Positions 20,005-23,904 of a stretch of 24,813 nucleotides of DNA are shown piece by piece. The notes beneath the pieces were generated by a model. The model saw only the letters and a program-made list of their open reading frames with translations. It searched no databases and was not told the origin of the DNA. Position 1 is the stretch's first letter. The number at the start of each line of letters is the position of its first letter. A program made the translations under genes and the position numbers. This stretch comes from a virus: positions 1 through 24,813 of the IMG/VR virus record IMGVR_UViG_3300025617_000110, one strand, 5' to 3'.

Positions 20005-20322
20005 ATGCATAAAGATTTATTTTTAGAATATATGCAAAATTGGGCTAGATGGATGAAGTCTGAAGATCATAAGCTTGGCTTCCCTCAAAGAAGTATTGGT
20101 ATGGCTGGAGCATCATCCACAAGCTTTGACGATATGATTGAAGAGGCAGATTCTGAGATAGTTAGAACTATAAACTCATGCATTGATTCTTTAGGAAGCG
20201 AAGAGGTTAATGCAATCTGGGCCAGATACATAGGAACTAAGAAGCCAATGTACTATGAGATGAAGTTACAAATAGGTCTGGATAAGTTACAAAGCATGGT
20301 AGAGGCTAGGGTACAGATATAA
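20005..20322 (+). CDS. Q-like late antiterminator candidate
   Basis: This 105-residue protein starts HKDLFLEYMQNWARWMKSED, followed by LGFPQRSIGMAG, a Ser-rich stretch and a helical DNA-binding-like end (EVNAIWARYIGTKKPM, LQIGLDKLQSM). The early W-A-x-W motif and helical C-terminus resemble small phage antitermination proteins (Q type). It is the last rightward gene before a leader promoter and terminator that precede the late genes, where Q genes are found. The identity needs a profile search; sequence similarity visible by eye is modest. Confidence 0.5.
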   Translation: MHKDLFLEYMQNWARWMKSEDHKLGFPQRSIGMAGASSTSFDDMIEEADSEIVRTINSCIDSLGSEEVNAIWARYIGTKKPMYYEMKLQIGLDKLQSMVEARVQI

Positions 20323-20345
20323 AAAAGGGCTACCGAAGCAGCCCT
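20321..20345 (-). terminator. Intrinsic terminator, UUCG loop
   Basis: On the minus strand, AGGGCTGC-TTCG-GTAGCCCT is an eight-pair stem (including one G-U pair) with a UUCG tetraloop, followed by TTTTT. It would end transcripts of the two minus genes to its right. On the plus strand it lacks a U tract. Confidence 0.75.
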
Positions 20346-20373
20346 GTATGGAGATTTCTATAAGATCCTCCCT

Positions 20374-20556
20374 TCATTTAGCAAGCATTTTTTTATACTT
20401 TGCTAATTCTTTATTGTACACCTCAGCAAGTGCTTCTAGCTTTTTTTTATTAATAATAATTTCTGCATATAAACCTTCACACTTATGCTTTTGATCTAGA
20501 ACATCTTGCACTTCTTTATCTACATTATCTAAAATATTTTTAATTTCTGTACTCAT
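20374..20556 (-). CDS. Coiled-coil small protein (60 aa)
   Basis: This 60-residue helical, heptad-rich protein reads MSTEIKNILDNVDKEVQDVL, then DQKHKCEGLYAEIIINKKKL. AAAGGAGAG precedes the start. It lies second in a two-gene minus cassette that ends at the UUCG terminator. No family recognised. Confidence 0.55.
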   Translation of the reverse strand: MSTEIKNILDNVDKEVQDVLDQKHKCEGLYAEIIINKKKLEALAEVYNKELAKYKKMLAK

Positions 20557-20583
20557 GATTCTCTCCTTTGTTAAACCTAGAAC

Positions 20584-20859
20584 TTATCGCTCTAGGTTAT
20601 ATTCGTTAAAAATTCCTTTTACTAATACCCATGATTTTCTATGAGTATTACGGAACATCTCGCTTGGTATATCAGCCCATGATCCGTCACCAACTGGTTG
20701 CCATATATCTTCAACACTTAAGCTAAACTTTTCACCATTATCAACAAACAAAAAGTTTTTAGTAATGCGAGCAACTTTACCAATATGTCTGCTATCACCA
20801 TTCCAACCTGATGAAACATCATCACCTACTTTGAAACTATGTTTTTTAATATCTACCAT
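20584..20859 (-). CDS. Small beta-rich hypothetical protein (91 aa)
   Basis: The ATG at 20859 follows GGAG by six bases and is preferred over the ATG at 20871. The 91-residue product has an SH3/KOW-like beta pattern (SFKVGDDVSSGWNGDSRHIG, KVARITKNFLFVDNGEKFSL) and an Arg/Trp-rich end. It is first in the minus cassette, behind a promoter with a consensus -35. Function is unknown. Confidence 0.55.
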   Translation of the reverse strand: MVDIKKHSFKVGDDVSSGWNGDSRHIGKVARITKNFLFVDNGEKFSLSVEDIWQPVGDGSWADIPSEMFRNTHRKSWVLVKGIFNEYNLER

Positions 20860-20892
20860 GTCAATCTCCATATAATTAAGTTAGTAAAGATA

Positions 20893-20931
20893 TTATTATC
20901 TATTTTGATATTATTGTCAACATATTTGACA
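20893..20931. promoter_or_regulatory. Minus promoter with -35 palindrome
   Basis: TGTCAA-CATAT-TTGACA (20915-20931) is a perfect inverted repeat. Its left arm read on the minus strand is a consensus TTGACA -35, followed 16-19 bases on by TAATAA or TAATAT around 20895. It would drive the minus cassette; the repeat may be an operator or a divergent -35 pair. Confidence 0.45.
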
Positions 20932-21010
20932 CTATTTATTTAAATTAATTAAAAAAAGTTAAAAACATACTAAATATTGTGGTCTGAGTATCGGAAGACA
21001 CCTAATTATT

Positions 21011-21019
21011 TGATATAAT
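21011..21019 (+). promoter_or_regulatory. Extended -10 late promoter
   Basis: TGA-TATAAT is a perfect extended -10 element. No good -35 is seen 17 bases upstream, which extended -10 promoters can do without. A GTCT-N10-AGAC inverted repeat lies in that zone (20982-20999). Start predicted near 21026. Confidence 0.6.
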
Positions 21020-21025
21020 AATGGG

Positions 21026-21096
21026 GTAGGGGGAAGTACGCCCAATTTACTCCCTCTATCCTCCTTTGTAAGGCCCATTTCGGTGGGCCTTTTTTT
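21026..21096 (+). ncRNA. Putative late leader RNA (pR'-tR'-like)
   Basis: From the predicted start the RNA forms a long hairpin (arms about 21024-21038 and 21048-21061, 14 pairs with one bulged A, nine-base loop) and then the terminator. A roughly 70-nt transcript would accumulate unless antiterminated. The layout resembles lambda's 6S leader before the late operon; function is inferred. Confidence 0.45.
21070..21096 (+). terminator. Intrinsic terminator of leader
   Basis: AAGGCCCA (21070-21077) pairs with TGGGCCTT (21084-21091) around TTTCGG and runs into a U tract to 21096. It lies between the late promoter and the first late gene, so late genes need readthrough. Confidence 0.85.
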
Positions 21097-21119
21097 ATAC
21101 CTAAATATAGGAATCAATC

Positions 21120-21176
21120 ATGGCAGGCAAATGTAAATCAAAAGGCAGAAAAGGCTACGGAAAGAAAGGGAAGTAA
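21120..21176 (+). CDS. Tiny basic protein (18 aa)
   Basis: AGGA at 21109-21112 precedes an ATG that opens MAGKCKSKGRKGYGKKGK, 18 very basic residues. Similar Lys/Gly mini-proteins occur in phage late operons. Two bases separate it from the next ATG. Translation is plausible but unproven. Confidence 0.4.
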   Translation: MAGKCKSKGRKGYGKKGK

Positions 21177-22387: not shown

Positions 22388-22601
22388 AGAAAAGATTCAG
22401 ACAAGTCAGCTTATAAATCGCCTGCAAAATCATGCACTTAGCGAAGAAATAAATGAACTTAAGCCAAGTCAATTAAAAGCGATTGAGATACTATTGAAGA
22501 AGTCGTTACCTGACTTACAGTCTACTGAAATCACAGGTGATTCTGATGCTCCAGTAAACTTTAAAGTAATTACTGGTATTCCTAAGAAATCAGATGAGTG
22601 A
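22347..22601 (+). CDS. Terminase small-subunit candidate
   Basis: The ATG at 22347 follows GGAG by six bases; an ATG at 22335 is less supported. The 84-residue protein is helical (LKTREKIQTSQLINRLQNHA, LKPSQLKAIEILLKKSLPDL) and ends with a polar tail. Location immediately upstream of the large terminase, overlapping it by eight bases, suggests the small, DNA-recognising subunit. It is shorter than usual, so it may be a partial or divergent type. Confidence 0.5.
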   Translation: MATRKNLKQTLKTREKIQTSQLINRLQNHALSEEINELKPSQLKAIEILLKKSLPDLQSTEITGDSDAPVNFKVITGIPKKSDE

Positions 22602-23904
22602 GGTTGAATTACAAGAGCTCGAAACTGAAGAAGAAGAGGTTATCGAGGAAGAGGTTGATTTAAACTACAGACCTAGAGATCCACAGTTATTAATACATGA
22701 GGCTGTTGAAGATCATAGGTTTAATGTAGTCGTTGCTCATCGTAGGATGGGTAAAACGGTTTCAGCTATCAATCAGTTAATACATAGTGCATTAAACTGC
22801 GAGAAGTCTAACCCTAGATTTGCTTACATTGCTCCTACATACAACCAAGCTAAACGAGTGGCTTGGGATTATTTACTTGAGTACACAAGGCCATTAGATG
22901 CTAAAGCGAATATTGCAGAGCTTAGAGTTGATTTTATGGGTGTCCGTATCTCTTTATACGGTGCTGATAATGTTGATTCTCTTCGAGGCATCTACCTCGA
23001 TGGTGTAGTGATTGATGAGATTGGTGATGTAAATCCTAATCTATTTACAGAAGTAATACGACCAGCTCTGGCTGACCGCAAAGGCTGGACTTTGTTTATT
23101 GGTACACCTAAAGGTGCTAACCACTTTAAAACATTACGAGATAAAGCTTCAACTAAAGATGACGGCTGGAACTTATTAGAGTTTAAAGCTAGTGAGACAA
23201 AGATATTAGATCAAGAAGAGCTTGATGCTGCATTTAAAGCTATGGGTGAGTCAAAGTTCTTACAAGAGTTTGAATGTAGCTTCGCAGCTCCAGTTGAAGG
23301 TGCTTATTACGGTAGCTTGATCAATGATCTATATACAAAAGGTCAAGTGACTGATGTTCCTACTGATGGTATAGCAAAGACATTTACAGCTTGGGATTTA
23401 GGTATGGGTGATTCTACTGCTATTTGGGTAGCTCAAGTTGTAGGTAAAGAAATTAGATTGATTGATTTCATGGAAAATCATGGAGTTGGATTAGATCATT
23501 ACATTAAATGGATAAGGGATAACGGCTACGCTACTGCTGAACATCTTTTGCCACATGATGTACAAGTTCGTGAACTAGGAACTGGTAAGTCTCGTAAAGA
23601 GATGATAGAAGAGTCAGGTCTTCCAGTGACTGTTGTAGCAAAGTTAGGTGTCGATGATGGTATTCAAGCAGTAAGAAGAATGTTACCTAGATGCTGGTTC
23701 GATATAAAAACAAAACAAGGCTTAGATGCTCTACAAAACTATCGTAGAACTTACGATGATAAAAGAGATGTATTTTTTGATAAGCCTATACACGATTGGT
23801 GTTCCCATGCTTCTGATGCTTTTAGATACCTTGCAGTTGGGTTAGATGAAGGCACAAGTGATTGGAATAAACCACTAGACATAAACAATTCATGGGTAGT
23901 TTAA
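22594..23904 (+). CDS. terL: Terminase large subunit
   Basis: This 436-residue protein has an acidic N-terminus, Walker A AHRRMGKT (48-55), Walker B GVVIDE (137-142) and a coupling GTPKG (170-174). The C-terminal RNase-H-like nuclease has D268 in TAWDLGMGD, D322 in PHDVQV and D408 in SHASDAF. It cuts and pumps DNA into the procapsid through the portal. Length and motifs fit the Terminase_6-type families of podoviruses. Both ATPase and nuclease active sites look intact. Confidence 0.93.
   Translation: MSEVELQELETEEEEVIEEEVDLNYRPRDPQLLIHEAVEDHRFNVVVAHRRMGKTVSAINQLIHSALNCEKSNPRFAYIAPTYNQAKRVAWDYLLEYTRPLDAKANIAELRVDFMGVRISLYGADNVDSLRGIYLDGVVIDEIGDVNPNLFTEVIRPALADRKGWTLFIGTPKGANHFKTLRDKASTKDDGWNLLEFKASETKILDQEELDAAFKAMGESKFLQEFECSFAAPVEGAYYGSLINDLYTKGQVTDVPTDGIAKTFTAWDLGMGDSTAIWVAQVVGKEIRLIDFMENHGVGLDHYIKWIRDNGYATAEHLLPHDVQVRELGTGKSRKEMIEESGLPVTVVAKLGVDDGIQAVRRMLPRCWFDIKTKQGLDALQNYRRTYDDKRDVFFDKPIHDWCSHASDAFRYLAVGLDEGTSDWNKPLDINNSWVV

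Follow-up and report, generated by a model that had tools for sequence, protein, structure and literature searches.

A probable Q-type antitermination switch with a consensus pause element ahead of the late genes in a group of aquatic phages

Ahead of its packaging genes, the window, which is the whole virus record of 24,813 bases (24.8 kb), carries a set of elements by which, in our reading, the late operon is switched on through Q-type antitermination, with a probability of roughly 0.8. Q-dependent late control had been proposed in an earlier note on this DNA, and it is supported by the relationship of a 105-aa protein to annotated antitermination proteins, by the Q21-like predicted fold of this protein and by the recurrence of promoter and terminator behind the Q gene. 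The elements and their conservation are observed in sequence, as are the relatives of the protein and, in predicted models, its modest fold match; we infer a start site, a pause, loading of the protein (Q binding) and read-through. Host polymerase would use the late promoter and would pause after about 14–15 nt at the consensus pause C21039/G21040. Without the Q-like protein, it would resume and stop at the nearby terminator, leaving a leader of about 71 nt. The Q-like protein probably uses a sigma-region-4-like helix-turn-helix to dock on promoter DNA in the paused complex; polymerase carrying it would be resistant to terminators and would transcribe the packaging and structural genes.

Results

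Layout of the late region

The features of the region are as follows.

20005 to 20322, plus strand: gene of the Q-like antitermination protein, 105 aa
20374 to 20556, minus strand: small ORF of 60 aa from the ORF list, in a minus-strand cassette between the Q gene and the late promoter; family searches gave no match
20584 to 20871, minus strand: small ORF of 95 aa from the ORF list, in the same cassette; weak match to PHROG 9742
21011 to 21019, plus strand: extended -10 of the late promoter, TGATATAAT; same element in relatives
21024 to 21061, plus strand: leader hairpin of 14 pairs, from folding
21029 to 21044, plus strand: consensus pause element GGGGGAAGTACGCCCA, conserved in relatives, with the pause predicted between C21039 and G21040
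21059 to 21064, plus strand: C-rich TCCTCC element, from a motif search of leaders
21070 to 21096, plus strand: intrinsic terminator (stem 21070–21091, T run 21090–21096)
21120 to 21176, plus strand: lysine-rich ORF of 18 aa (MAGKCKSKGRKGYGKKGK), the first frame past the terminator
22594 to 23904, plus strand: terminase large subunit, 436 aa, 71% identical to the Venkman terminase over 94%; PHROG 2

The late region runs from the extended -10 through leader, terminator and small ORFs to the terminase, followed by a further long ORF that leaves the end of the record and that, by its position in relatives, may encode the portal. The lambdoid order of Q gene, late promoter and packaging genes is thus found in the window, and the same order is found in relatives. 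The Q-like gene does exist where the earlier note had placed it, but "just upstream" is too close a description, as the gene ends about 690 nt before the promoter with two minus-strand ORFs in between. Likewise, the elements do precede the packaging genes, but the terminase does not start until about 1.5 kb downstream.

The minus-strand ORF pair (20326–20920) has a promoter-like site of its own (11/12, 20920–20892) and is closed by a terminator at 20345–20326, the sole strong one on that strand in the whole record under the strict rule. ORF pair, promoter-like site and terminator make up an inserted cassette.

The extended -10 is present as claimed, with only three of six positions matched at the -35. 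Three TGNTATAAT sites occur in the window against 2.8 expected, which is chance level. Promoter-like sites near the late promoter are likewise no more frequent than chance, and none is a clear candidate for a second late promoter. Since the promoter match alone is no better than chance, the case rests on conservation in relatives. The combined pattern TATAAT-N7-12-GGGN7CGYC occurs once in the window and in 0/100 shuffles, and at the level of sequence it is this rarity, together with conservation in relatives, that gives the switch its significance.

The Q-like protein

The 105-aa protein is 40% identical (42 of 106) to UOF77537.1 from MW202481, annotated 'phage antitermination protein Q', and 38% identical to Venkman gp37, annotated 'antitermination-like protein', which bears out the Q-like identity suggested earlier. 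In the phages collection it has matches in three records only; besides these two there is EBPR podovirus 1, with 31%. The Pfam family PF06530 (Phage_antitermQ) scores 15.6 bits, below the cut-off of 26, and matches 5 of the 18 family members weakly, with a best E of 0.0056. A profile search of PDB sequences with E up to 1 retrieved neither Q21 nor any other solved antiterminator. Because sequence similarity to Q21 was tested and not found, the protein is not filed in the 21Q family.

AlphaFold models were obtained for the window protein (mean pLDDT 80.6, with residues 25–38 poorly predicted) and for its relative in L173 (mean pLDDT 79.2). The best structural match of both is Q21, at Z scores that are weak, being under 8: 6p1b for the window protein (Z 6.4, 86 aligned residues, rmsd 3.0) and 6p18 for the relative (Z 6.0, 98 aligned, rmsd 5.8), with a further Q21 entry for the latter (Z 5.9, 92 aligned, rmsd 3.3). 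Sigma region 4 domains rank next. Foldseek alone gave nothing significant. A direct-repeat binding element of the Q21 type (QBE) between -35 and -10 was not clearly found beyond chance in 79 promoters: direct repeats with five of six positions at a spacing of 7–9 occur in 18/79 promoters, as against about 13% of shuffles with five or six, and the window reaches only three of six.

A scan of genome contigs found no Q relatives, and therefore no host or prophage can be named. A PADLOC search returned nothing useful, and the DLP12 Q region of E. coli, with nmpC and an insertion sequence behind the Q gene, is uninformative as a comparison.

Conservation behind the Q gene

In the terminase set, 48 of 80 loci have at least 2.2 kb upstream and were counted. 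A promoter followed by GG-N8/9-YGYC lies upstream of TerL in 21 of these 48 on the plus strand and in none on the reverse strand. Among all distinct TATAAT sites of an initial collection of loci, the element is present at 16/38 sites followed by a terminator and at 23/1174 sites without one.

After the pattern had been fixed, a held-out set of fresh contigs was assembled via three other Q proteins. Its 163 loci were reduced to 156 by removing L302 and L307 as contigs already seen and five more with less than 150 nt downstream. Of the 156, 134 have the late-promoter element at most 400 nt downstream of Q, compared with 3 on the reverse strand of the same stretch and 12 in the upstream stretch. 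Among 70 distinct held-out leaders, 63 have an intrinsic terminator after the promoter, and 0/70 have one on the reverse strand. Because the sequences behind all these counts are related to one another, they do not amount to independent events, and some held-out leaders are identical or nearly identical to earlier ones, for example relatives of L083. Whole-record searches detected a Q relative in 18 of 30 related contigs, including all 10 longer than 20 kb, and the element is present in 11 of the 16 contigs with Q in which the stretch upstream of TerL could be tested.

Scanning the whole collection for TATAATN7-12GGGN7ACGCCCA gave 25 stretches. Three of them (L201, L212 and L216) have a Q-like gene by profile and two (L217, L219) are, judged by sequence, from the same group of phages. 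Of the remaining stretches, most look like chance matches, and the pattern alone is not specific at this scale.

EBPR podovirus 1 (L117, 5869–6480) has a terminase outside the listed relatives. It combines the same Q-like gene with a TTGACA promoter, GGGGCAGAGGTGCGCCCA and a terminator within about 150 nt, just before TerS. On the reversed strand of L215, near 9467, a promoter, GGGAATTTCCACGCCCA and a terminator-like hairpin stand directly behind a 96-aa ORF. No relative of this Q was detected in L215, and an HNH-like ORF (labelled by eye) lies further upstream; possibly another protein family uses the same element there.

The consensus pause element

When leaders are aligned on the predicted pause, the bases G-11, G-10, Y-1, G+1 and C+3 (21029, 21030, 21039, 21040 and 21042 in the window) are nearly fixed, partly by construction: the pattern used to pick the 29 aligned leaders itself called for GG and YG, and the covariation analysis is anchored on G, Y and G, so that invariance in those alignments is in part built in. 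The predicted RNA 3' end falls 19–24 nt after the -10, mostly 20–21, corresponding to an RNA of about 14–15 nt. G-10 Y-1 G+1 is reported as a pausing signal of polymerase (PMC7876045). In the held-out set, this consensus stands 18–25 nt after the -10 in 71 of 73 distinct leaders, compared with 17.7% of shuffles; the 73 were chosen solely by a TATAAT within 130 nt after Q, which nine loci lack, and this count and the 63/70 terminators are the less biased figures.

The lambdoid layout would have a -10-like promoter-proximal pause at this place. We could not find such a hexamer (NAnnnT near the lambda position) in any of 77 distinct leaders, under a rule that lambda passes, as do 19% of shuffles; the G-10 Y-1 G+1 consensus is there instead. 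The earlier note had not remarked on this consensus. The family appears to keep the consensus pause while showing no -10-like half, and the loading pause seems to be encoded by the consensus pause element.

Lineages that deviate

Venkman has a Q relative but lacks the element before its late genes. Seven loci (L052, L055, L056, L060, L062, L071 and L075) have Venkman's sequence after the same -10, without the element, and L024 and L025 also lack it. In L090–L094, promoter, leader and, where detected, terminator are kept and the pause consensus is absent. No leader terminator was found in L150, L168–L172 and L219 despite promoter and pause element.

The Venkman-like phages have a conserved late-promoter sequence of another kind, in which CAATTAAGC comes after AACTTAAAATGATGATATAAT and the GGG pause element is absent; it lies about 2.3–2.9 kb before TerL in the seven loci and at 1–520 on the reverse strand in Venkman (L194). 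L025, L034 and L080 have an inverted repeat GGGTAT...ATACCC in the place of the element, close behind a TATAAT and about 3.4–4.3 kb before TerL. Elements without a terminator stand at 3847 in L150, 906 in L168, 965 in L170 and 1791 in L172, and in L150 and L168–L172 a gene starts at once after the element.

The leader RNA and alternative readings

RNA folding of 21024–21099 gives a hairpin of 14 pairs and a terminator of nine pairs (-33.4 kcal/mol, z -4.24, 0/200 shuffles as good), confirming the earlier description of a 14-pair hairpin and a strong terminator within about 70 bases. By the strict rule, the terminator is the sole strong intrinsic one on the plus strand of the record, and it stands soon after the late promoter, as in the lambdoid layout. 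With a start at 21026, which is the start we predict, the terminated leader would be about 71 nt long. Rfam has no match in the window at the gathering threshold.

A C-rich element of the TCYCC type (TCCTCC/CTCTCC) is found in 87 of 103 distinct leaders, compared with 6.4% of shuffles; in some it stands between hairpin and terminator, in others inside the terminator loop. Candidate roles are those of a small-RNA seed, an anti-Shine-Dalgarno stretch and a Nus-type site. The terminated leader might act chiefly in trans, as a small RNA whose seed is C-rich, with the late genes transcribed otherwise. Its anatomy of 5' hairpin, C-rich stretch and U-tailed terminator fits, and StxS, reported as a stable RNA between pR' and tR' (PMC7873438), is a precedent, with which the window shares the anatomy alone, as seen in sequence. 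Against this stand the pause consensus, which is more constant than the C-rich stretch, and the lack of a clear second late promoter among the chance-level sites nearby. We regard a predominantly small-RNA role as unlikely; a small-RNA function could be an added role of the Q-controlled leader.

The antitermination reading also has to be weighed against an RNA that itself modifies polymerase with no protein required, as HK022 put does, which was the other proposal of the earlier note. In the window's clade a strong hairpin indeed sits at the very 5' end, and L083 (z -4.05) and L018 have comparable ones. However, hairpin size differs by lineage, from 14 pairs in the window's close relatives to 4–6 pairs elsewhere and almost none in some, while the pause consensus stays constant; the 14-pair hairpin is clade-specific. 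The two adjoining conserved stem-loops of about 70 nt that define put were not found in the leader, which has one hairpin of variable size and the terminator. A Q-like gene, moreover, is present in every case, either close by or, in long contigs, at another place. Short inverted repeats spanning the predicted pause are frequent among held-out leaders, and one inner pair of the short stem, -8:+2, covaries (0/3000 shuffles), as does the pair -6:0 more weakly (p 0.003), both without correction for relatedness among the sequences. Two tests were negative: the mini-hairpin shows no two-sided change in 16 aligned lineages, and its outward pairs show no covariation once close duplicates are removed (p 0.60 and 0.30). 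An RNA mini-hairpin is a possible selected unit; a put-like leader acting on polymerase by itself is quite improbable, and that proposal is not supported.

It is highly improbable that the consensus pause recruits another elongation factor of the NusG type, as ops is reported to do for RfaH (PMC5995543), with the Q-like protein acting otherwise: the part conserved at late promoters among relatives is indeed the pause element and not the -35/-10 spacer, but the element lies at a promoter directly behind the Q-like gene in most held-out loci, and Q21 is the best fold match of the Q-like protein.

Discussion

As the simplest account, the switch would operate in the manner of late control in lambda and phage 21. 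The closest known arrangement is lambda pR'-Q-tR', which has the same sequence of a Q gene upstream of the late promoter, a promoter-proximal GGG...CG, a leader, an intrinsic terminator and the late genes. The lambda pR' sequence carries GGGTTAATTCG, whose C is 22 nt after the -10, or +16 in our own numbering. In contrast to lambda, the window leader is shorter, the -10-like AACGAT has no counterpart, and the protein has no sequence match among solved Q proteins. Phage 21 Q is the best structural match of the two predicted models, which suggests a shared sigma-region-4-like helix-turn-helix; polymerase engaged with Q21 is reported to be arrested at +14 (PMC6606751). It differs in sequence, in chain length (139–156 residues in Q21 compared with 105 aa here) and in the direct-repeat binding element and -10-like hexamer, neither of which is clearly seen here. 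Lambda, phage 21 and AlpA are described as also using a -10-like hexamer (PMC6606751, PMC9371919).

AlpA of Pseudomonas aeruginosa and GafZ of Caulobacter are described as antiterminators that are loaded at a promoter and get past a terminator close to it (PMC9371919, PMC11150451), and by these descriptions they may be likened to the switch proposed here. According to the same sources, AlpA differs in needing a -10-like sequence, and GafZ in serving a gene transfer agent. With RfaH/ops the likeness lies in the recruitment of an elongation factor by a consensus pause; here the pause would lie at a promoter next to a Q-like gene.

In the available parts of the open-licence literature, including the accounts of Venkman (PMC8163748) and of an OM43 phage (PMC9004378), we found no description of late control in these phages, and among the titles and abstracts of that literature none describes such a pause element. 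We put forward tentatively, and with well under even confidence, that a separate class of late switch is widespread among freshwater and marine phages, in which a small Q-like protein would be loaded at a consensus pause with a mini-hairpin and without a sigma-dependent -10-like pause, and in which the short terminated leader may have a second function as a small RNA, its conserved C-rich stretch being the seed.

The switch would provide a concrete, testable timing mechanism for a group of common aquatic phages. It also bears on whether an antiterminator really needs the sigma contact or the consensus pause, the two halves of the loading pause at lambda pR', as only the second of them seems to have been retained in evolution here. 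Beyond that, the recurrent element would be a handle for locating late operons in uncultured phages.
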